DNA from: an uncultured Clostridia bacterium
GTDB lineage: Bacteria; Bacillota; Clostridia; Oscillospirales; Acutalibacteraceae
DNA length: 64,000 nt
NCBI GenBank assembly: GCA_947166625.1
Contig: CAMVEX010000012.1
Location: 1 to 64,000 of the forward strand
Reading direction: 5' to 3'
The notes under the pieces are model-generated. The model ran no database searches. It had not been told where the DNA came from and saw only the letters and a program-made list of their open reading frames with translations. Positions within the stretch are counted from its first letter, which is position 1, and each line of letters starts with the position of its first letter. Below are positions 6,363 to 63,936 of this stretch, one piece after another. A program made the translations under genes and the position numbers.

Positions 6363-8408
6363 ATGAAATATTGTGACTATGTAAACGTCAAGCAGGGCTC
6401 GGATTCAACACACAGATTTTCAAACGGAAACACTCTGCCTCTGTGTCAGCTTCCGTTCGGGATGACGGCGTTCGCGCCGCAGACGGCGCAAAACAGTTTA
6501 AGATGGTATTATCAGCCCAAAAGCAGGAGCTTTGACGGCATAAGGCTCACTCATCAGCCCTCGCCTTGGATAGCGGATTACGGAGCCGTTTGCTTCATGC
6601 CGCAAAGGAAGCCTCTCAACATAACCGAAGACAGGCGCTGGTCGGGATTCAGACCGGCTGACGCTGTCTTAAAGCCGTATTATCTCAAATACAGCCTGCT
6701 GAGATATTTTGCTGATATTGAGATAACGCCCACCGAGCGATGCGCGGTAATGAAGCTTACATTCAAAAAAGACGGCGGGAACTTTTTATCCGTCCTCCCC
6801 GTTGACGGAAAATATTCATATAAGTTTTCCGCAAAGAAAAATACACTGTATGTGACGACAGATCAGAATATGGGCGGAGACTGCAAAAACTTCTGCGAAT
6901 ACCTCGTGATAAAATTCCCGCAGGGAAGCGTTGACACAGATGAGATTTTCACGGGCAGGGCCGATACGCTTAAACCGGGGAAATCTATAACCGGAAAAGA
7001 TACCGGAATACACATCGGATTAAACGGCGATAAAACCGAAATCAAAATCGGCGTATCATACATTTCATTTGAACAGGCTCAAATCAATCTCGACAGAGAA
7101 ATCGGAGATAAATCTTTTGACGAGATCTGCGCTCAGGGCGAAAATATATGGGAGGAATATCTCTCGAGAGTAAAAATCAAGCCCGTTGACGAAAAGCAGT
7201 TCAGGACCTTCTGCTCCTGTATGTACAGAGCGTTTTTATACCCTCACAAAGCGTATGAGACCGATTCTCAGGGAAACGACATACACTACTGCCCGCATAC
7301 CGGAAGCGTAAAAGAGGGCAAGAGATATACCGATAACGGATTCTGGGACACATACAGGACCTGCTATTCATTCTATTCTCTCTGCGCAAAGGATGAGCTT
7401 AAAGATATGATCTCATCTTTCATCAACGAATACAGAGAGAGCGGCTGGCTTCCGAGATGGCTCTCAATAGGCGAGCGCGGATGTATGCCGAGCACCCTGA
7501 TAGACGCCGTTATATGCGACTGCGCGAAGAAGGGCTTTATATCTCAGAAGGATCTGAAGACCGCTTTTGAAGGAATGAAAAAACACGCCGAAAAAGAAGC
7601 GGAGCAGGATTATTTCGGCAGAAACGGCGCGAAGGCATATTCAAAGCTCGGATATGTCCCCTGCGACAGGCAGAGAGAGAGCGTGAATCTCACCCTTGAC
7701 GCGGCTTACGGAGACTGGTGCATTGCCGAAATCGCAAAGATGCTCGGCGACGAAAAGGCCGAGAAAAAATACCGCGGGCGCTCAAAGAACTACGCAAATC
7801 TGTTTGACAAAGAAACCGGATTTATGCGCCCGAAATATTCTGACGGAAGATTCAGAGAGGATTTCTCTCCGATCGGCTGGGGCAGAGATTATACCGAGGG
7901 AAGCGCCTGGCAGAATTCATTCGCAGTGCCTCACGATATCGAAGGGCTCGCGGAGCTTTACGGAGGCAAAGAGAAATTCCTCAAAAAAATCGATGAGCTT
8001 TTTGAGACCGCTCCGGAATACGAAATAATCGGCTATAACGCAGAAATACATGAAATAACGGAAATGGCAGCCGCAGACTTCGGTCAGTGCGCCATATCGA
8101 ATCAGCCGAGCTTCCACATTCCCTATATTTACTCCGCTCTAGGTGAAACCGAAAAAACGGCATATTGGGTTAAAAGGATATGCGAAGAAGCGTTTTCTTA
8201 TGAGGATGACGGGTTCCCGGGGGATGAAGACAACGGGTCAATGGCGCTTTGGTATATCTTTTCCATTCTCGGCTTCTATCCGTTCTGCCCCGGAAAGCTT
8301 GAATTCGTTAAAGGAATAAAGCAGGTGAAATCCGCTGAAATTCTCGGCAAAAAAATAGATACGGAGAGCATAGAGGGCAATATAATACCCTATGACTATT
8401 TTATATGA
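6363..8408 (+). CDS. GH92 alpha-mannosidase
   Basis: A 681-aa member of glycoside hydrolase family 92, calcium-dependent exo-alpha-mannosidases that trim N-glycans and mannans. The N-terminal beta-sandwich begins with the family-typical YVNVKQGSDSTHRFSNGNT and LPFGMTAFAPQ; the helical catalytic half has YTDNGFWDTYRT, GRDYTEGSAWQNSF, NQPSFHIPYIYS and the conserved end FPGDEDNGSMALWYIFS. There is no signal peptide, unlike the secreted Bacteroides enzymes, so it should work in the cytoplasm. Start at 6363 is preferred over 6348 because AAGGGTG sits 6-8 bp upstream and the predicted transcript starts after 6348. It overlaps the next small gene by 4 bp (ATGA), giving a three-gene operon with the sialidase-like gene. 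Confidence 0.95.
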   Translation: MKYCDYVNVKQGSDSTHRFSNGNTLPLCQLPFGMTAFAPQTAQNSLRWYYQPKSRSFDGIRLTHQPSPWIADYGAVCFMPQRKPLNITEDRRWSGFRPADAVLKPYYLKYSLLRYFADIEITPTERCAVMKLTFKKDGGNFLSVLPVDGKYSYKFSAKKNTLYVTTDQNMGGDCKNFCEYLVIKFPQGSVDTDEIFTGRADTLKPGKSITGKDTGIHIGLNGDKTEIKIGVSYISFEQAQINLDREIGDKSFDEICAQGENIWEEYLSRVKIKPVDEKQFRTFCSCMYRAFLYPHKAYETDSQGNDIHYCPHTGSVKEGKRYTDNGFWDTYRTCYSFYSLCAKDELKDMISSFINEYRESGWLPRWLSIGERGCMPSTLIDAVICDCAKKGFISQKDLKTAFEGMKKHAEKEAEQDYFGRNGAKAYSKLGYVPCDRQRESVNLTLDAAYGDWCIAEIAKMLGDEKAEKKYRGRSKNYANLFDKETGFMRPKYSDGRFREDFSPIGWGRDYTEGSAWQNSFAVPHDIEGLAELYGGKEKFLKKIDELFETAPEYEIIGYNAEIHEITEMAAADFGQCAISNQPSFHIPYIYSALGETEKTAYWVKRICEEAFSYEDDGFPGDEDNGSMALWYIFSILGFYPFCPGKLEFVKGIKQVKSAEILGKKIDTESIEGNIIPYDYFI

Positions 8409-8623
8409 ACAGAAAACTCACAAATAAGAAAAACTATCCTCCCAAATGCGCTTATTGCGCAAAAGGCAGGCTGTCACCGGACGGAGAGAGCGTTCTCTGC
8501 CCCAAAAAGGGAATAACATCGCCTCAGGACAATTGCCGCTCTTACAAATATGATGTGATGAAAAGAATACCGGAAAAGGCGCCGGTGATCAAATCGGCAG
8601 ACCCGAAGGATTTTGAATTATGA
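8405..8623 (+). CDS. Small Cys-containing protein of unknown function
   Basis: A 72-aa basic protein that I do not recognise by name. It has a CAYC pair (residues 15-18), a third Cys in VLCPKKG, a fourth in DNCRSYKYD, and a Lys/Pro-rich C-terminus. Four cysteines in this spacing suggest a small zinc-ribbon-like fold, but this is inference. It is clearly a translated gene: its start overlaps the GH92 stop as ATGA, and its stop overlaps the next start in the same way, so all three are translationally coupled. No signal peptide or membrane segment. Confidence 0.7.
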   Translation: MNRKLTNKKNYPPKCAYCAKGRLSPDGESVLCPKKGITSPQDNCRSYKYDVMKRIPEKAPVIKSADPKDFEL

Positions 8624-9609
8624 ATTATAAAAAAGAATTTGTATGCCAAAAGATGCCGACCCTGAACTGCCACGCTTCAACGGTTTTGCCGCTTGATAAC
8701 GGAGACACTCTTGCTGCCTGGTTCGGCGGCACAAAAGAGGGAAACGACGATGTGAATATCTGGTATTCACTCAGGCACTCCGGCGAATTCTCAGAGCCGA
8801 AAGAAATAAGCGTATCAAAGGATCTCCCCCATTGGAATCCGGTATTGTTTCAAAAAAGCGAAAACGAGATAATTCTGTTTTTTAAGGTCGGCAAAAAAAT
8901 ACCGAAATGGAAAACATATTATTGCATTTCATCAGACGGCGGCAAAACTTTCGGCGAGCCGAAAGAGCTTGTGATCGCAGATAACAGCGGAGGCAGAGGT
9001 CCGGTCAAGAATAAATGCATAAGGCTTTCAAACGGCAGAGTTCTGGCGCCCGCTTCAACGGAAAATCACGGCTGGCGATGCTTTGTCGATATATCCGACG
9101 ACAACTGTGAAAGCTGGAAAAAAGGAAAATATATCAAAACGGAATCCGCATTCGCACCTTTTAACAAAGGAAACGGATACTGCTCAAACAAGACGGCGAT
9201 GATACAGCCGACGCTTTGGGAAAGCGGAGACGGTAAAGTGAGCATGCTCACAAGGACATCGTCGGGTAAGATTTACAGAAGCGACAGTGAAGATTACGCA
9301 GAGACCTGGTGCAGGGCATACCCCACCGCTCTGCCTAATAACAACAGCGGTATCGACGCAGTCGCCGCGCCCGGCGGAAAGCTCTTTTTGGTATATAACC
9401 CCGTTGGAGATAACTGGGGCGAGCGCTCGCCGCTTGTGCTCGCAGAATCAGACGACAACGGTAAAACCTTCAGAGAGATCCTCACACTTGAAGAGGAGAA
9501 AAAAGACAGCGAATTCTCTTACCCCGCAATAACATACAAAGACGGAAAGCTTTATATAACCTACACCTGGGAAAGGCTTAATATAGTTTACGCCGAGGTC
9601 GAGATATGA
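8620..9609 (+). CDS. Sialidase-like BNR-repeat beta-propeller protein
   Basis: A 329-aa six-bladed-propeller protein of the predicted-neuraminidase group (COG4692-like, BNR/Asp-box). The opening LNCHASTVLPLDNGDTLAAW followed by FGGTKEGNDDVNIW is typical of this group, and Asp boxes appear as SSDGGKTF and SDDNGKTF with a degenerate SDDNCESW. It lacks a signal peptide and any carbohydrate-binding module. Family members include GH33-type exo-sialidases and enzymes of other specificity, so sialic acid as substrate is inferred. It is the last gene of the GH92 operon, consistent with trimming of N- or O-glycan antennae, and its 3' end abuts a large inverted-repeat element. Confidence 0.8.
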   Translation: MNYKKEFVCQKMPTLNCHASTVLPLDNGDTLAAWFGGTKEGNDDVNIWYSLRHSGEFSEPKEISVSKDLPHWNPVLFQKSENEIILFFKVGKKIPKWKTYYCISSDGGKTFGEPKELVIADNSGGRGPVKNKCIRLSNGRVLAPASTENHGWRCFVDISDDNCESWKKGKYIKTESAFAPFNKGNGYCSNKTAMIQPTLWESGDGKVSMLTRTSSGKIYRSDSEDYAETWCRAYPTALPNNNSGIDAVAAPGGKLFLVYNPVGDNWGERSPLVLAESDDNGKTFREILTLEEEKKDSEFSYPAITYKDGKLYITYTWERLNIVYAEVEI

Positions 9610-9611
9610 AA

Positions 9612-9922
9612 AACGGAGTCGCCCGAAGGGCGGGTATTCATAAAACAGTAATGCCTCAAAAAGCGATCTTTGCACATCTTGTGCAGGCATTCCTCCTCGA
9701 AATACAGCAAGTATTCCTCGTCGTCAAGGCCTGCAAATCTGCACAAATCTCATCTTTTTGAGGTGCAAAGCAGTTTTCTCGTGAAAAATAAGCCGCAGAA
9801 CAAGGAAGGCTTGCGAAAGCATACTTTGTGTATGGTAAGCAAATCTGACGATGTTCCGCGGCTTTAGTTTTCCGTGAAAACCAATACTGTTTTACGAATA
9901 CCCGCCCAAAGACGGCTCCGTT
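9612..9922. repeat. 311-nt palindromic element with nested hairpins
   Basis: A long imperfect palindrome filling the space between two convergent genes. The outer arms are 9612-9650 and 9885-9922; both carry GGGCGGGTATTC(A/G)TAAAACAGTA in inverted orientation. Inside, 9655-9688 pairs extensively with 9729-9762 (shared ends CTCAAAAAG and TGCAGGC), with a smaller hairpin at its tip, and a second internal stem pairs AAGCCGC-GAACA near 9793-9803 with its complement near 9852-9864. No convincing reading frame is present. A solo, diverged copy of the left arm lies at 58281-58318, also just after a plus-strand stop codon. It could be a miniature mobile element, a structured RNA, or a bidirectional terminator. 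Confidence 0.75.
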
Positions 9923-9925
9923 AAT

Positions 9926-12139
9926 TTAAGATTTTCTTAAAGAATACTCCGCAAACATCACTCCCATGATCGGTTCGGAAAATTTAAGCTTCGCCCTGCC
10001 GCCGGGTATCAGTTTTTTAGGGACATGATATGAGGCGCAGACAAATCCAGGTTTACAGTATTTTGACGTATAATCCTCATCGATTTCTCCGAATTGAGAG
10101 CCGAGGTAAATATCCTCTCCGTTTACGGAAATACGGTGTGAAACTACGGCGGGATCGGTTTTGTCAAGATAAGTAATCCTCAGCACATAATCGCTTGAAG
10201 GATCAAGCCCGTCAACGGTATGCTCATACACAAAATTATCAAAGATATTGAATAGAGCGGTCGGAAGGGTGCCGTCATTTATATCGGGGCGGTCGCCCGT
10301 GAAATTGAAATAGGGCTCGCCCTCCTGCTTTTCTTTAACTGTATCGAGAGCGACGGAAAAATAATATTCACCCTTCCCGACGGTATTCCTGCAAAAATAA
10401 TCAAGAAGCCGGCGGGCATCGGCGCAGTTTTGCGCCTTATGGATAAGCCATTCTTTATCTGTTACGGGAAGGTCGATCGTATCAAGCACGGCTCCCCTCT
10501 CGGGATTATCGGCATAATAATGCTCAACATCGCTCTGATAACCGATAAGCTCAAACAGAGACGCCGCAAGCTTATCAATTTCGGCTCTGAGTTTTCTGCA
10601 ATCATCCGGCAAACGGGTATTGAGGATTTTGACAGCCCCTCTTAAATCATCGAGAAGAAGGCGCTCTTTCGCCTGCGAGATCAAGGATAAATCAAAGATA
10701 AGTCTGCTTTTAATATAATAATCACAACAAGCTCTGAAATAAAGCATCAGAAAACGCCAGTTGCAATTTAACGAATCGAATGAACGGGAAAGCGCAAGGC
10801 ATAATTCATAGGCATAATCAATGCTTTCATTATTTTCGGGGGCTCCCTGCCAGTTTTTTTCAAGCGCGAAAACAAGGTGGGAGATATTATCTGTATCGGT
10901 GCCGAAGAAAAACGCCCTCGCGTAGTCAGCGACCGCTTCTTCGGCGGAAATATCGGGATCGTATTCGAGGGCGGACCAGAGGAATTTATTCACATCATCC
11001 GTAACGCCCTCGGAATAACTGACAGAGCCGACAAAATAACGCTCCGTCTCCTTAAACAGTCTGAGGTATTCAAGCGGTCTGGGATTTGCGCACTCCCTGC
11101 CAAGGCAAGTACAAAGCGCGTAATTCCAATCATTTTTATCATAATGAACTGGATATTCGCACCTGACATTGTGGGTGATATCGGGATAAAAGCGAAGCGG
11201 GAAAAGCTCCGACAGCTCATCATAAAGCCTCTCAACGGGCATAGCGTGATTGGGGCCGTAAATGACACCGTCGATACCGCGCGGGTCTTTTTTGATTTCG
11301 GAAACAAATCTTTCGCCCCAGCCTTCAAACTGATGAGGCGCCTGAGCGGAAACATAAAGGCGGGCATTGGAATGAGCGCTCTTAAGCGAGGGAGAAATTG
11401 CCCGGCATCTCGATAATAATTCGTGAGCATCAAGATCGCCGGGATCACCGCCCGGGATGAAAAGATAATCGAGCCTTGATAATTTTGAATATAATTCTTT
11501 TCTTTTTTCGGCGGCGGACCGATCCGTTTCGCCGTTATAATTCGGATGCCAGAGAGATATATCGAGATCGAGCCTGTCAAGAGCATCGGCACTTTTTATC
11601 AAAAACTCTCCGCCGTCATATTTCATAAGTGGATTTTTTGAGGAATGCTCGGGGTCAAACGGGATATGCTCAATGGTATTGACCCCGAAATACATTAAAT
11701 CGAGGTAATATCTCTCGTAATCATCATAAGACCAGGCGTCATAAGTATTCGGAGTGGTCCTGTATCCGAGCTGATGACCTCTGATCTTTTTGTATGGCGA
11801 ATAAGAGCCTCTGATATCACATACGAGGCGCAGACCGTTATCGGTTTTTTCGCATTTTCGCAGGAATCTGCCGACGCAGTAAAGAGCGCCTCTTATGCCG
11901 CCGGAAATGAATCTGAGCCCATCGCCGAAAGATTCGATTTTATATTCGTCACGGCCGAAAGAGGGATCGGTTTCAAATATTATATCTGCATCGTTTTCGG
12001 ATGACGAAATAAAGGCGATATTGCAAACGCGCTTATTCAATTCCATACAGAAATGCTCCGCTGCATGATCTGACGGCGGAGCGCTGCTGAAAATTGCCAC
12101 TCTATCGAAATTCAAAAAATCCTGATACAAAGCAATCAA
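9926..12139 (-). CDS. Putative glycoside hydrolase with GH20b/GH67N-like N-terminus
   Basis: A 737-aa cytoplasmic protein I cannot assign to a named family. Residues 1-110 look like the alpha/beta domain that precedes the barrel in GH20 and GH67 enzymes (pattern ADIIFETD then GGIRGALYCVGRFL). The next ~300 residues fit a (beta/alpha)8 barrel: KIRGHQLGYRTTPNTYDAW, YFGVNTIEHIPFD, LDYLFIPGGDPGD and GVIYGPNHAMP. A helical part and a C-terminal beta-sandwich (from about residue 590) follow. No signal peptide. The start is a TTG at 12139 one base after the upstream stop, with no strong ribosome site, so the true start is uncertain. The neighbours (GH92, GH36-like, GH125) argue for a role in host-glycan breakdown; substrate unknown. 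Confidence 0.6.
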   Translation of the reverse strand: MIALYQDFLNFDRVAIFSSAPPSDHAAEHFCMELNKRVCNIAFISSSENDADIIFETDPSFGRDEYKIESFGDGLRFISGGIRGALYCVGRFLRKCEKTDNGLRLVCDIRGSYSPYKKIRGHQLGYRTTPNTYDAWSYDDYERYYLDLMYFGVNTIEHIPFDPEHSSKNPLMKYDGGEFLIKSADALDRLDLDISLWHPNYNGETDRSAAEKRKELYSKLSRLDYLFIPGGDPGDLDAHELLSRCRAISPSLKSAHSNARLYVSAQAPHQFEGWGERFVSEIKKDPRGIDGVIYGPNHAMPVERLYDELSELFPLRFYPDITHNVRCEYPVHYDKNDWNYALCTCLGRECANPRPLEYLRLFKETERYFVGSVSYSEGVTDDVNKFLWSALEYDPDISAEEAVADYARAFFFGTDTDNISHLVFALEKNWQGAPENNESIDYAYELCLALSRSFDSLNCNWRFLMLYFRACCDYYIKSRLIFDLSLISQAKERLLLDDLRGAVKILNTRLPDDCRKLRAEIDKLAASLFELIGYQSDVEHYYADNPERGAVLDTIDLPVTDKEWLIHKAQNCADARRLLDYFCRNTVGKGEYYFSVALDTVKEKQEGEPYFNFTGDRPDINDGTLPTALFNIFDNFVYEHTVDGLDPSSDYVLRITYLDKTDPAVVSHRISVNGEDIYLGSQFGEIDEDYTSKYCKPGFVCASYHVPKKLIPGGRAKLKFSEPIMGVMFAEYSLRKS

Positions 12140-58565: not shown

Positions 58566-58683
58566 ATTATCTGCTCAACAAAACGCCTGATAATGTGTAA
58601 ATCTTCTGAATAAAGTCAAGCTAAGAGGTTGTGTTTGAGGAAATATGAAAACGCATTAAAAATTAAATAAACTATAAGCAGAG

Positions 58684-58709
58684 CGCCAACCGCAATAAAG
58701 CGATTGGCG
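58684..58709 (-). terminator. Likely end hairpin of the vWA-module operon
   Basis: CGCCAATCGC/GCGGTTGGCG stem on the minus strand with one mismatch, TTTATT loop, then CTCTGCTTATAGTTTATTT. It lies 34 nt past the 87-aa gene; the U-run is weak. Confidence 0.55.
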
Positions 58710-58742
58710 TTATTTTGATTGTTAATGTGTCTGTCAGTCAAT

Positions 58743-59006
58743 TTAAACCGGGTCCATATAAGTAGTCTGCTCCGATTTATCGTATATAGGCGCGAATACA
58801 TATTTACTGTCTTTTTTGAATACTGCCTGGACAGCATCTTTGTCTTCATATGTGTATTCCACATATATCCGGCTTTTCGGCTCAAGGTGATCATTAATAA
58901 AATCCTGGCCCATTGAGGGCGCTGATCTGTAATTAAGCACGATATTCCGATTGGTTATATAATTTTTCCTTCTTTGGTCAGGTAATCTGCATAAGGTTTC
59001 ATTCAT
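58743..59006 (-). CDS. Small protein of unknown function (87 aa)
   Basis: A 87-aa soluble protein beginning MNETLCRLPDQRRKN. Its start overlaps the end of the zinc-ribbon gene (58999) as ATGAATGA, so it is probably translated by coupling. Middle part is acidic and beta-like (SRIYVEYTYEDKDAVQ, SKYVFAPIYDKSEQ). It might instead be a frameshifted tail of the upstream protein; the overlap geometry favours a separate gene. Not recognised. Confidence 0.5.
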   Translation of the reverse strand: MNETLCRLPDQRRKNYITNRNIVLNYRSAPSMGQDFINDHLEPKSRIYVEYTYEDKDAVQAVFKKDSKYVFAPIYDKSEQTTYMDPV

Positions 59007-60258
59007 CCGGCAGAGTATTATCGGGAGTAGGGAATGAAACAACCTTTGTATTTATATAGTTGTAATCTCTGCCTTCTGTAAGCGTGTAATCAAGAATTAT
59101 ATAGTTTGCATACTTCTCACCGAAATATTTTTCTTTAAGAGTTGCTTTGCCTGCTCCTACCACTTTGCTTTTTCCGATATTCTCGTCTCCGATACCGCGA
59201 TAGATGTTGGTATCTATTTCAAGCCCTTTACAATCATAATTTTTGAAATAAACGGTCAAGGTGCCGTCGGAATTTCCGGTCGCTTTGTAAGCTTTGGAAA
59301 AATAGCTGCTCACATTTGCAATATCATCCGGAATGTAATATTTGCCGCTTTCAAATAGATAAGTATCGGTTGAACTGTCGTTTACGGAAATATCAAAATA
59401 TCTTTTTACTCTTTCATTTACATAATAAGCGTCAATATATCTGTCATATTTTGTTCCGCCGGATGTAAACGCTTCATTACCGAGCTCATATATTTTTGAA
59501 GGATTGTTGATTATTGCCTGCTCAATAACAAAATCAATCATTTGATTTTGTTTGCCGGATGAAATATCCTTAACTCCGGCCTCGGCAAAATTTGACAGGA
59601 ATATATTAAGAAGGCGTATATTTTCCGATGAAAACGAATTTAATAAATTATCATCTGATTTGTTTTGAGTAGGATATTGCAGATTGTTATTGTCTGTATA
59701 TGTGCTTGGGAGGGAGTTTTCCCCGGTGTTGTCATATTCGTAATGGTATTCTTCGGTTTCCTGTTCATAACCGGAATTATAGGATTCCTGAGAAGAATTT
59801 CCTCTGATAATCCTGTTTATTGCAGCCTTGTATTCGATCATTTTGCCGTCATCGGTAGCTTTGAAAATGATGATATTAAACAAAGTAAATAATAAAATCA
59901 ATGCAATCAAAGAGGATAACAGAACGATTGACACTTTAGCAAGCCTTTCGGAGGGGCTTTTATAGTTTGTTGCGGTTCTGTTATTGTATGACGATTTTTT
60001 TGCATAGTGATCGTCAAACAGAGAATCGATCCCGCTGTTAAATTCGTTTTGATTTTGACTTCTTTCTTCAAAGAATGAATTCAGTTCGTCCCACGAATCA
60101 GTATTTTTGCTGTCTGAAAAGATGTTGTTCTCGAAACGGGATTCCGAAAAGATTCCGTCATCAGTCGCATCAATTACTGTACCTGTGACTTTTGCTCCGC
60201 AATAGGAGCAAAACACGCTTTCTTTTTTCAGCTCTGCGCCGCAATTTAAACACTTCAT
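58999..60258 (-). CDS. Zinc-ribbon membrane protein of unknown function
   Basis: A 419-aa protein. Residues 3-20 form a zinc ribbon, CLNCGAELKKESVFCSYCG. An acidic linker of about 85 residues follows, then one transmembrane helix (about 110-132, SIVLLSSLIALILLFTLFN). The external part has an Asn/Ser/Tyr-rich linker (about 150-200) and a folded domain of ~210 residues (LLNIFLSNFAEAGVKDISSG onwards, ending near DYTLTEGRDYNYINTKVV). The layout, cytosolic zinc ribbon plus one helix plus external domain, is common in Clostridia, function unknown. It sits between the 299-aa and 87-aa genes. Confidence 0.72.
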   Translation of the reverse strand: MKCLNCGAELKKESVFCSYCGAKVTGTVIDATDDGIFSESRFENNIFSDSKNTDSWDELNSFFEERSQNQNEFNSGIDSLFDDHYAKKSSYNNRTATNYKSPSERLAKVSIVLLSSLIALILLFTLFNIIIFKATDDGKMIEYKAAINRIIRGNSSQESYNSGYEQETEEYHYEYDNTGENSLPSTYTDNNNLQYPTQNKSDDNLLNSFSSENIRLLNIFLSNFAEAGVKDISSGKQNQMIDFVIEQAIINNPSKIYELGNEAFTSGGTKYDRYIDAYYVNERVKRYFDISVNDSSTDTYLFESGKYYIPDDIANVSSYFSKAYKATGNSDGTLTVYFKNYDCKGLEIDTNIYRGIGDENIGKSKVVGAGKATLKEKYFGEKYANYIILDYTLTEGRDYNYINTKVVSFPTPDNTLPDE

Positions 60259-60304
60259 TTTTTTACCCTTGATCCATTTTAATTGAAAATTACCCGTTTT
60301 TTCA

Positions 60305-60328
60305 GAGCAGCCGCTTCAGCGGCTGCTC
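60305..60328 (-). other. Perfect GC hairpin between two genes
   Basis: GAGCAGCCGCT/AGCGGCTGCTC with a 2-nt turn, in the gap before the zinc-ribbon gene. On the minus strand it is followed by TGAAAAAACGG, not a U-run, so it is not a clear terminator; an mRNA-stability or processing hairpin is more likely. Confidence 0.6.
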
Positions 60329-60338
60329 CTTATCATTA

Positions 60339-61238
60339 TCACCATGTAAATAAAGCTTTGAAAAAGTCTGCGATCCCTTCAAAAAATCCTCCGAAAATCG
60401 CTCCTGCGGGAAGGATGGTCAACGGATTAAGCGAAAACAGGAATCCGAGCGGGAGCAGGGGAATCGCTTCCTTTAACATTTCCCAGCCGTCTTTGAACAG
60501 GGATCTTCTTTCCTCGCTTTTTCCTTCTACACGGACTTTCCATTCTGTCTGAATTATGTCATTCAAACAGATTTTTATTATCTGATCGCCCGTTTCGTCA
60601 AAGGTTATGTCATAAGACCACTGGCCTTCGCCGATAAGCCGGTCATTCATATATACCTTATATTTATCCGCAAAGAGACCGCCTAACATAAAATGAATTT
60701 TATCGCCCTGATAAAAGCTCGGATCTCTGTAATTTCCCTCAATAAAATAATTCCCGTCATATTTTTTATATGAATACAGAGTTTCTCCGCCGTCTGCGCC
60801 GGCAAATTTTGCTATCCTGGGGTTTTCGTTCCCTTCGGAATCAATGAAAGAGCCGGGCATTATAACAACTCTGAGATACCCGTAATTTGACCGATATCGG
60901 ATAAAAATAACATAATGCTCTCCGTCATCGAGCTCTCTTTTTCCTATTATGTAATCTTCCTCGGGTATTTCTATTGTCTTGAGTTCGTCGGATGAATACG
61001 TGGGATAATAGCCGAGCCAAAGATTGACCGAATCGGTTACGCCGACATATTTCGCATCCATTACAACGGTGCAAAATCTGTCTGAGCTGTTATATATCCA
61101 GAGCTTATCGGGAACGGAAATGTCTTTGTAGTTTTCATAAACGAAATCTGCAAATGACGATTGAATGAATGCGCATAAAGCAAGACATAGAGCAAGAGCA
61201 AGGGCAATTAAGTTTTTTGAAACTCTTTTGATTTTCAT
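60339..61238 (-). CDS. Secreted beta-rich protein with hydrophobic C-terminus
   Basis: A 299-aa exported protein I cannot name. Signal peptide residues 1-30 (ending QSSFA). Two beta-rich domains follow (LWIYNSSDRFCTVVMDAKY to MPGSFIDSEG, then the Ig-like stretch GDKIHFMLGGLFADKYKVYM to CLNDIIQTEWKVRV). Residues 262-299 are strongly hydrophobic (LLPLGFLFSLNPLTILPAG) and the protein ends GFFEGIADFFKALFTW. This tail could insert into the membrane or mediate assembly. Adjacent to the vWA protein gene, 68 bp downstream. Confidence 0.7.
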   Translation of the reverse strand: MKIKRVSKNLIALALALCLALCAFIQSSFADFVYENYKDISVPDKLWIYNSSDRFCTVVMDAKYVGVTDSVNLWLGYYPTYSSDELKTIEIPEEDYIIGKRELDDGEHYVIFIRYRSNYGYLRVVIMPGSFIDSEGNENPRIAKFAGADGGETLYSYKKYDGNYFIEGNYRDPSFYQGDKIHFMLGGLFADKYKVYMNDRLIGEGQWSYDITFDETGDQIIKICLNDIIQTEWKVRVEGKSEERRSLFKDGWEMLKEAIPLLPLGFLFSLNPLTILPAGAIFGGFFEGIADFFKALFTW

Positions 61239-61306
61239 GGCAGTAACTCCTGTTTTATGGGAAGGGGATGTTTTCTCTTTTCGCTTTTTAATCCGTTTTT
61301 TGCTGC

Positions 61307-62734
61307 TTAAGCTGTTGCTGCAGTAAATGCTTTCAATGCAGCTTGCAGTAACATCAGCATTACGCTGAACATATTTTTGAGCAGGGCAACTACTTTTTCA
61401 AGCAGTTCTTCCATAGATGTGCCCGGATCAACAATTTCTTTTGCTATATCTTCAAAAACATCTGTTAATTGCTCAGGGTCATTTACATTATAATATCCTT
61501 CGTTTTGCAGATCGTTCATAAACTTCTGTCCGAAAGTTAAATCGTTTCCGGAAAGGGAATGGAAAAATCCGAGGGTATATATTTCATAAGATTTCTTTAG
61601 TTCTATTGCAGTATCATAAGCAGCATTTGCGTAGGCATAAGCATCGTGGTCGTTGCCGGTATATTTACCGCTTGTTTTTCTCGCGCCCTCGCAGGGCAAT
61701 CCGTCAGAACACAACACTATTATTTTGTTTGCGTTATTGTTTGTTACTCCCTGTAGCTTATTCCCTGCCTTTAGCAGAGCGTCGTTTGTATTTGTTGTTC
61801 CGCTTGCATCTGTTGAGTTGATAATTGATTTCAATGTGTTAAGGTCATTTGTGAAATCACATTTTACGCTTGCTGATGAGCTGAATGTGATGATTGACAC
61901 ATAATTATTTGACGAAGTATTTATAAGAGTTTCGCAAAAACTTGTTGCCGCTTCTTTCTGCTTTGCAATCGGTGTACCGCTCATACTGCCCGAAGTATCA
62001 AGAACGAGAGCGGTGTATTGGGAATTGGAAGATTCAGGATTAGCGTATAATCCTTTTTCATCTATAGAAATTGTATTATTGGGAGCTCTGTAGATACCGC
62101 GTTCTTCACAAGTAGCGTTTAATTTTGACTGCAGATCACCCTTGCTGATTTCATTATCCCAGTCTATAAGACAGGGACCATTATAATTGGATTGTGTATA
62201 TTTAACGGTATCTCCGATAATATCTGTAATGAATATTGAATGCGGACCTGCAGCTAAAAATCTTACATGATCTCCCGGCTTAAGTTGGTTTACATCTGTT
62301 CCGATATTTTTCCATTTATTGCTTTTAATATATGGATCAATTCCGAAAATATCAAGTCCTAACTGGCATGCATAGGCGTTACACTGTCCGCATACCCAGG
62401 TGCCGTTTACATAATAACTGCCGCATTCACATCTGCAGTTTTCATTGCAATAATCACCTGTGTGGTAATAAGTGTCATTACATAATTTATTAGTAGAAGA
62501 TTTTGTTAAATTAACTTGTTTTTCAGATGGACTGTACCATTTGTTGTTGCCCGCAAAGTATTCTCCGTTTTTGAATTTTTCTCTCTCTGCTTTAATAGCT
62601 GAAATGAATTGATTATTACCAATGGGCGTATCTGCCGAGGCTTTAGGTAAAATATCCCTGCCGCAGACTATTGTACCTGTTAAAAGCACAAAAGCCAGCA
62701 ATAAAGAAACCGTGATTTTCATATTCTTTTTCAT
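61307..62734 (-). CDS. Secreted protein with Cys/His hydrolase-like domain fused to a vWA domain
   Basis: A 475-aa exported protein. Signal peptide ending near KASADT (residue 36). Residues 80-120 are Cys-rich (CNDTYYHTGDYC, CRCECG, VCGQCNAYACQLGL), with a papain/CHAP-like Cys118; LKPGDHVRFLAAGPHSIFIT supplies His165. Residues 238-410 form a von Willebrand A domain with a full MIDAS: LDTSGSMSG (Asp246, Ser248, Ser250), a Thr in GTTNTNDAL, and CSDG (Asp344). The C-terminus is an amphipathic helical tail (LLEKVVALLKNMFSVMLM). It may be a metal-dependent adhesin with an amidase/peptidase-like module. AAAGGAG precedes the ATG. Confidence 0.8.
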   Translation of the reverse strand: MKKNMKITVSLLLAFVLLTGTIVCGRDILPKASADTPIGNNQFISAIKAEREKFKNGEYFAGNNKWYSPSEKQVNLTKSSTNKLCNDTYYHTGDYCNENCRCECGSYYVNGTWVCGQCNAYACQLGLDIFGIDPYIKSNKWKNIGTDVNQLKPGDHVRFLAAGPHSIFITDIIGDTVKYTQSNYNGPCLIDWDNEISKGDLQSKLNATCEERGIYRAPNNTISIDEKGLYANPESSNSQYTALVLDTSGSMSGTPIAKQKEAATSFCETLINTSSNNYVSIITFSSSASVKCDFTNDLNTLKSIINSTDASGTTNTNDALLKAGNKLQGVTNNNANKIIVLCSDGLPCEGARKTSGKYTGNDHDAYAYANAAYDTAIELKKSYEIYTLGFFHSLSGNDLTFGQKFMNDLQNEGYYNVNDPEQLTDVFEDIAKEIVDPGTSMEELLEKVVALLKNMFSVMLMLLQAALKAFTAATA

Positions 62735-62761
62735 AAAATCTTTACTCCTTTATATTATATA

Positions 62762-62911
62762 TCAGTATTTATCATACTCGCTGAGGATATAGTTGAGGTC
62801 GGCGGATTGTTTCTTTAATTCGCCGTTGATATAGAGTGCATACCATCCTGCTGTGCTTGCCTCGCGTACCTCGATCAGCCCGTATCCGGTCCTTTTGGAT
62901 TTCAAAATCAT
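62762..62911 (-). CDS. Small protein of unknown function (49 aa)
   Basis: A 49-aa gene starting MILKSKRTGYGLIEVREAST with AAAGGGGTG 7 bp upstream and ending SEYDKY 27 bp before the vWA gene. The composition is a small beta-alpha unit (GYGLIEVREASTAGWYALYI then NGELKKQSADLNYILSEYD). Such short proteins occur near clostridial secreted-protein genes, but I do not recognise a family. It is the first gene of the module. Confidence 0.72.
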   Translation of the reverse strand: MILKSKRTGYGLIEVREASTAGWYALYINGELKKQSADLNYILSEYDKY

Positions 62912-62941
62912 ATTTTCACCCCTTTCTCGTATAGTAAACTG

Positions 62942-62980
62942 TCCGCCGGAAAATTTACACTCCGACCGTTTTCCGGCGGA
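62942..62980. other. 12-bp inverted repeat upstream of the module
   Basis: Perfect arms TCCGCCGGAAAA (62942-62953) and TTTTCCGGCGGA (62969-62980), 31 bp upstream of the 49-aa gene. It could end transcription from the TM2 gene or act as an operator; the promoter for the module cannot be pinned down. Confidence 0.6.
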
Positions 62981-63156
62981 TTATAAGATTCCTCGGCACC
63001 CGGTAAAAAATCATTGTGCCGGAATCATTTTTTGTTATCACCCGAAACCGATCGGGTAAGGCTAATATACTGCAACCCGTAAATAAACTGATGCTTGGGG
63101 TGTGCATATTTGAAATCCGACCCCTTAAATTTGACATCTGTGTCGCTCACACCCGT

Positions 63157-63273: not shown

Positions 63274-63936
63274 TCAGTTATTTCTTTTGACTGCCCGACC
63301 TTGTGAATCTTTGAAGCTCTGAGTGAGGATCATGATAAAATCAATCAGACATCCTATTCCGAATAATCCGGCTGTGAATATATACAGTATGCCTGTCCCG
63401 ACTTTTCCTACATAAAAACGATGAGCACCCAAAACTCCGAGGAAAATATAAAGCAGTAAACAAGTTAACCAATCCTTATCGGAAACATTCGGATCGTTTG
63501 TCCTGTTATAATAATTCTGATTGTAATTATTCTGTTGATTCTGATAATTTGTTTGTCTTTGGCCGTTTAAGCTGTAGCCGCAAGCGCTGCAAAATACAGA
63601 ATGAGCCGGCAGTGAGCTTCCGCAATTTGGGCATACCGTCTGATTATTTTCAGGGGTATATACCGGCACGGGCGGAGCCGATTGACGGGAAACAACTACA
63701 GGATCATTAAAGCCTGCGCTGTCCGCTGCTTTTACGGCGGTGCTGTAAATATCTTCCTGCTCGTTTTTCTGCTTAACGGATGAATAAAGCTTCTTTGAGC
63801 AGGACGGACAGAGACGCATCTGCTTCGTTCTGCTGCCGTCACTGAGCATTAAAGTGAACAAATCATCCGTCGGCGTGCTGCATTTGGTGCATACGCCATG
63901 TTCTCCTCTGTTGGTTACTGTTAATTCATAAGCCAT
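63274..63936 (-). CDS. TM2-domain protein with zinc ribbons
   Basis: A 220-aa membrane protein. N-terminal Cys clusters CTKCSTP and CPSCSKK, then a second zinc ribbon [20 protein letters not shown], a Gln/Asn/Tyr-rich spacer (about 125-150), and a TM2 domain of two helices with [20 protein letters not shown] and [14 protein letters not shown]2 proteins with zinc ribbons are common in Firmicutes with no established biochemical role. Its ATG has GGAGG upstream. The gene may lead the AT-rich module. Confidence 0.88.

Follow-up and report, generated by a model that had tools for sequence, protein, structure and literature searches.

Amidases and peptidases of the CHAP and NlpC/P60 families (PF05257 and PF00877), such as Ly7917, PlyC, LysK, MepS and GspA, are the closest described counterparts of one half of the protein considered here; the other half is a von Willebrand factor A (vWA) domain, a module in which DxSxS, T and D motifs form a metal ion-dependent adhesion site (MIDAS). 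A CHAP/SH3 protein from goat rumen is reported to have hydrolyzed cell walls (PMC5146660), and the account of Ruminococcus flavefaciens RflaF_05439 lists Cys109, His215 and Gln230, with Gln as the third residue of this superfamily member (PMC3573020). Here, we analyze a gene for a 475-amino-acid (aa) protein that joins a CHAP/NlpC-P60-like domain to a vWA domain, together with its neighbors, in an uncultured Clostridia bacterium of the family Acutalibacteraceae. The window, i.e., the whole stretch analyzed, comprises bases 1-64000 of a contig (CAMVEX010000012.1) that ends at 78559 and belongs to a 2.49 Mb draft genome in 49 contigs.

The account that we favor, with modest confidence, is that the 475-aa protein is a surface-held wall hydrolase or peptidase carrying a vWA ligand module, the product of a one-species shuffle in a variable region whose neighboring genes do not constitute a conserved machine. 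A first-pass annotation of the same DNA had instead grouped the gene with four others into a joint surface machine.

Results

Domain architecture of the 475-aa protein

The assignment of the vWA domain is certain, with an expectation value (E) of 5e-19 for PF13519 and scores of 69.3 bits (cut-off 27) and 60.5 bits (cut-off 23.8) for PF13519 and PF00092, respectively. All three MIDAS motifs are present (Table 1), in agreement with the complete metal site read by the first-pass annotation, and metal binding is predicted from these motifs. Query-free profiles matched the protein at 1.2e-24 (CHAP-like) and 9.6e-66 (vWA), and a single open frame without a stop runs across both domains. Hydropathy peaks at residue 7 and again at residue 448, where the C-terminal hydrophobic segment is a possible membrane tether.

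For the N-terminal half, a layout of Cys118 and His165 resembling that of CHAP or papain enzymes had been proposed, and alignment, profile and structure comparison all back it. From 89 relatives, 80 loci chosen by two peptide patterns were kept (L084-L163); 59 of these were inspected, one containing stop codons and four near duplicates were removed, and the remaining 54 were aligned with the window domain to give 55 rows. C118, H165 and N183 occur in 55/55 rows, counted as residue presence only. Further conserved cysteines lie at 85, 104 and 188, with the invariance of C85 being partly a matter of selection because one of the locus-picking patterns ends in the Cys aligned with it. The predicted model of the domain (predicted local distance difference test score, pLDDT, 80; predicted template modeling score, pTM, 0.82) has a papain-like fold, and CHAP endolysins took the first three places when folds were compared with one program (VIA-align 2).

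The aligned loci sample a large secreted CHAP-like family of gut Clostridia, most of which escapes Pfam. Its frames (n = 83, including the window) range from 107 to 1646 aa; judged by eye, a signal peptide is common and several frames carry repeat or dockerin-like parts.

Several observations weigh against the favored account. At E up to 1, Pfam yields no match for the window domain, not even to CHAP PF05257, which 12 of the 55 aligned rows do match at that threshold, and a sequence search of the PDB with the CHAP-like profile returned nothing significant (best E 1.1; a weak GspA register at E 1.7). Position 181 is Asp or Glu in 52/55 rows, Gly in two and Gln solely in the window protein, and position 120 is Gly in 54/55 rows and Ala solely in the window protein; enzyme activity may therefore be reduced or lost. 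For RflaF_05439, the authors state that proof of activity is still wanting (PMC3573020). Finally, the searches returned no close relative of the whole gene from other species, and therefore nothing shows selection on it.

These departures, together with further differences from the family majority at positions 105 and 182, could point to a dead or altered pocket, in which case the protein would be an adhesin whose dead domain binds wall peptides while the vWA domain binds a ligand. This account has to reckon with the retention of C118, H165 and N183 and with the Gln reported as the third residue in a superfamily member (PMC3573020), and we regard it as unlikely, if a serious contender. Under the preferred reading as a wall hydrolase or peptidase, the Cys118 thiolate would be activated by His165, with Asn183 and/or Gln181 as orienting residues, and would cleave amide or peptide linkages, peptidoglycan being the probable substrate. 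The vWA domain, in place of the repeat or other modules usual in the family, would hold the enzyme to a protein or glycan ligand via its bound metal.

The fusion is confined to one of the sampled genomes

We searched 45 genomes of the genus, 200 of the family and 394 of the order (overlapping samples, each including the genome itself; threshold for the 475-aa protein at order level, E 1e-8). Any match to the 475-aa protein was found in 21/45, 53/200 and 52/394 genomes, respectively, and a match to both halves in 1/45, 1/200 and 1/394, which was the source genome every time. Relatives bear the CHAP-like and vWA halves on separate proteins. Three matches that span the domain junction (in G397, G146 and G096) were considered as further fusions and ruled out, each having one of the two domains only. 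In the loci then in the comparison set, the CHAP-like profile matched in 110 and the vWA profile in 50, both totals including the six copies of the window gene; among the ORFs (open reading frames) of the compared loci, both profiles fell in one frame only in those copies, and the vWA profile had no match among ORFs of at least 60 aa in the 80 CHAP-like loci.

The nearest vWA relatives in the family (L052 and L053) are secreted proteins of ~366 aa with LPXTG-like ends, 44% and 40% identical to the vWA domain of the 475-aa protein; L052 scores 18.9 bits to Gram_pos_anchor, under the cut-off of 20. Seven records of a plasmid collection match the 475-aa protein, all in the vWA half. The literature search, which covered titles and the openings of abstracts, turned up no account of a CHAP-vWA fusion. 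A phage origin was rejected, as the CHAP-like relative L084 was unmatched in the phage collection and the 475-aa protein has no close relative in viral contigs; L084 was matched once in plasmids, in Ruminococcus albus 7.

No match to the whole protein was found in a genome-contig collection, a search that reports close relatives only and may leave out near records of the genome itself. The lack of a second genome with the fusion, combined with this possible omission, would also be expected if two genes had been joined in silico in the 49-contig draft. Such an artifact is extremely unlikely given the one stop-free frame, the one signal peptide, the overall G+C (GC) content of 37.8% and the position inside a 78.6-kb contig. 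We rather suppose that the fusion was born by domain shuffling between two common surface-protein families, in one species.

Neighboring genes do not form a conserved unit

The first-pass annotation had described five adjacent minus-strand genes with shared spacing and low GC content. Four of the five ORFs stand (Table 1), and the 87-aa ORF is unsupported as a gene: Pfam (E up to 0.05) gave nothing for it, nor did NCBIfam for its longer TTG form, it has no relative among the loci sets compared, and its single PHROG row is weak (E 0.02). The spacing is not shared, the intergenic gaps being 27, 68 and 80 nucleotides (nt), in order, followed by an 8-nt overlap between the 419- and 87-aa ORFs. GC content is indeed low over the region as a whole (38.6% over 58700-63000 vs 47.0% over 1-58000, with the lowest-GC 4.2-kb stretch of the window beginning near 58600); the 49-aa gene, at 45.3%, is not AT-rich.

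Table 1. Features of the 475-aa gene and its surroundings in window coordinates.
Feature	Position	Strand	Details
475-aa secreted protein: signal peptide, CHAP/NlpC-P60-like domain, vWA domain, hydrophobic C-terminus	61307..62734	-	ORF, PF13519 5e-19, profiles, hydropathy
CHAP/NlpC-P60-like domain, residues 42-230	62045..62611	-	Cys118 62381-62383, His165 62240-62242, Asn183 62186-62188; Gln at 181
vWA domain, residues 240-434	61433..62017	-	DTSGS 246-250, TTNTND from 313, D344; Pfam, profile, motifs
Hydrophobic C-terminal segment, residues 448-466	61337..61393	-	Hydropathy; no LPXTG by eye
49-aa ORF	62762..62911	-	27-nt gap upstream of the 475-aa gene; no family above cut-off
299-aa secreted orphan, hydrophobic C-terminus	60339..61238	-	Second copy elsewhere in the genome
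GC-rich hairpin	60305..60328		Between the 299- and 419-aa genes; 10 pairs, 8 G-C; terminator-like on the + strand only
419-aa membrane protein: zinc ribbon 2-24, linker, transmembrane segment 109-127, outer domain from ~161	58999..60258	-	Pfam, hydropathy
87-aa ORF	58743..59006	-	ATG at 59006; overlaps the stop of the 419-aa gene; unsupported as a gene
220-aa zinc ribbon + TM2 protein	63274..63936	-	First of a zinc-ribbon gene run continuing past the window

Judged by eye, Shine-Dalgarno-like sequences precede the 49-, 475- and 299-aa ORFs, and a promoter-like site (63007-62980, 10/12 positions) lies ahead of the 49-aa gene. The region holds 25 promoter-like sites vs 17.7 expected and seven terminator-like sites vs 5.1 expected by chance, and because these counts are near chance we make no operon claim from them.

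The reading of the 299-aa protein as secreted is supported. It falls into no family of Pfam or NCBIfam (a single Pfam row, E 0.12, is at chance level) and is confined to the source genome, with 1/200 family genomes and, using a two-row profile, 1/394 order genomes matched. Its second copy there is 48% identical, and the 20 kb around that copy hold no relative of the other members. The two copies agree well over their last 45 residues, a hydrophobic stretch; a one-sequence structure model of the protein reached a pLDDT of 38. The 49-aa protein likewise occurs in 1/45 genus genomes, the source.

The 419-aa product is the membrane zinc-ribbon protein that had been described, with 30.8 bits to Zn_Ribbon_1 (cut-off 25) and one hydrophobic segment (residues 109-127; hydropathy 2.78 at residue 109). 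It is matched in 4/44 other genus genomes: in the sister species G015 (a 263-aa lipoprotein-like frame) and in G200 (a signal-anchored, 472-aa frame) through the outer domain, and in G221 and G231 only at the zinc-ribbon/transmembrane end. Across the family, 13/200 genomes match, mostly weakly and at the zinc-ribbon end. No relative of the vWA, 299-aa or 49-aa proteins lies beside the outer-domain relatives in G015 and G200. A link to type VII secretion through EssA was dismissed, the 419-aa protein scoring 18.4 bits against an NCBIfam cut-off of 32.45.

A true five-gene surface machine, such as a contact-dependent module or adhesin processor comprising the 49-, 475-, 299-, 419- and 87-aa products, would be consistent with the shared strand, close spacing and low GC content of four of the genes and with the promoter-like site ahead of the 49-aa gene, itself one of the near-chance number noted above. 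Nevertheless, its components occur only in the source genome or apart from one another in the sampled genomes, the 87-aa ORF is unsupported, and neither co-occurrence nor conserved synteny was found in the 45 genus, 200 family and 394 order genomes. We consider such a machine very improbable. With the fusion unique among the genomes examined and the neighbors not traveling with the 475-aa gene, we therefore read the protein as a domain-shuffled surface protein rather than as one part of five.

PADLOC, applied to three of the five products (475, 299 and 419 aa), returned nothing for them, and a role in anti-phage defense was set aside. The same result bears on the idea of an interbacterial weapon, a secreted lytic enzyme steered to competitors by its vWA domain, with which the CHAP endolysins as nearest folds and the signal peptide would be compatible. 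Neither an immunity gene nor a specialized secretion context was recognized, and a number of the CHAP-like relatives, L068 included, are parts of surface-type proteins rich in repeats (mostly judged by eye), making a weapon very unlikely indeed.

The gene run continues beyond the window

Genes for zinc-ribbon, secreted and membrane proteins run on past the window to the contig end at 78559, and the five-gene boundary is therefore arbitrary; the 49-, 475-, 299-, 419- and 87-aa genes are one end of a variable run of surface and membrane genes. Past the 220-aa gene (in L036, the contig part beyond the window, where position 1436 is contig base 65436), proteins of 384, 375 and 282 aa share its N-terminal GVCxKC...LCxxC module. 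The four proteins with this Cys-rich module (window 63274-63936; L036:19-1173, 6763-7890 and 10255-11103) differ in their membrane or outer parts, and relatives occur in sister genomes, e.g., G214.

Two DUF6273 surface-type proteins are encoded near each other (L036:1436-5098 and 7887-10241); DUF6273 comes up in papers on the targets of diversity-generating retroelements. A sigma-70 type, extracytoplasmic function (ECF)-like factor (L036:5113-6633) contains a hydrophobic stretch, and its long C-terminal extension, rich in Thr and Ser, may be extracellular. Toward the contig end, L036:11964-14559 holds genes for a VirD4/TraG-like ATPase and a zinc ribbon/GRAM protein as well as part of a serine recombinase gene, truncated where the contig stops; these genes are signs of a mobile element beside the region. 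The VirD4-like ATPase matched HerA/mad8-type models in PADLOC, the sole match there.

A C-terminal tail across the genus

Many unrelated large secreted proteins of the genus end in a common tail with the approximate consensus ETVxVKTGFFxKIIAFFRxLFGxLPVxxQ (core GFFxKIIAFFRxLF; examples at L036:1436-1540, L068:13958-14062 and L194:11834-11938). It is borne by List_Bact-repeat, BspA-type leucine-rich repeat and CHAP-like/repeat (L068) proteins. When built from four tails, a profile had matches in each of the 45 genus genomes at a lax E of 1, 43 of them with a best E of 5.5e-4 or below; the weakest best values were 0.0022 (G221) and 0.289 (G227). At E 1, there were 22 matches in the source genome and 46 in G015. 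A profile of 29 tails, with at most 20 candidates scored per genome, matched 38/378 family genomes at E 1e-3, six of which belong to the genus; many of the others had one weak match.

In the 30 best loci, 31/31 tail matches finish 0-13 residues before the stop codon. By a lenient rule, 14/16 distinct 5'-complete tail frames of the source genome have a signal-peptide-like start, and the two that do not are short (98 and 149 aa). Among the Pfam and NCBIfam rows listed for eight and five tail proteins, respectively, none had its best stretch on the tail with one exception, a sub-threshold NCBIfam row (PRK07121.1-2, E 0.11) over the end of a 167-aa protein of L213, and the same search of titles and abstract openings turned up no account of the tail. 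Judged from these sequence features, it resembles an apparently uncatalogued signal for sorting or anchoring.

The tail raises the idea of a species-specific surface outfit in which the 475-aa protein would be a ligand-gated processing enzyme, its Cys-His domain brought to the substrate by metal-dependent binding of the vWA domain, and the C-termini of the 475- and 299-aa proteins would be diverged forms of this genus-wide surface-holding element. The tail profile gave the 299-aa C-terminus only E 1.6 and did not list the 475-aa protein, and such an outfit seems improbable.

Discussion

Together, these data indicate that the 475-aa protein is a new combination of known domains, absent from all other genomes examined, and probably the surface protein of one species. 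It suggests how gut Clostridia exchange modules behind a shared secreted domain of papain-like type, most members of which go unrecognized by Pfam. Among the sampled genomes, the five-gene unit is not conserved, and the proposed system probably does not exist. Closer attention may be due to the tail rather than to the fusion: should it prove to be a signal for sorting or anchoring, it would offer a testable answer to how these bacteria retain large proteins without LPXTG at the surface.

Among known systems, TcaA has an N-terminal zinc ribbon, a transmembrane segment and an outer domain, a layout shared by the 419-aa protein; the matches of the 220-, 282- and 375-aa neighbors to the TcaA-like family NF053815 are weak and far under the cut-off, and the 419-aa protein is unmatched. 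The secreted proteins L052 and L053 resemble the 475-aa protein in their vWA domain and differ from it in having no CHAP-like domain and an LPXTG-like end, whereas the gut-Clostridia family of 80 loci shares the CHAP-like domain and the common signal peptide but not the vWA domain. With the CHAP and NlpC/P60 enzymes, the 475-aa protein has in common the papain-like modeled fold, the Cys at a helix start, the His in the sheet and a CHAP-type Asn; it differs from them in the missing Pfam match, in Gln for the usual acid, in the extra Cys 85, 104 and 188, and in the vWA fusion. RflaF_05439, an NlpC/P60 protein compared here by its description, is likewise a secreted gut-Clostridia papain-like module with a Cys-His-Gln triad, and carries a duplicated module and a dockerin rather than a vWA domain (PMC3573020).

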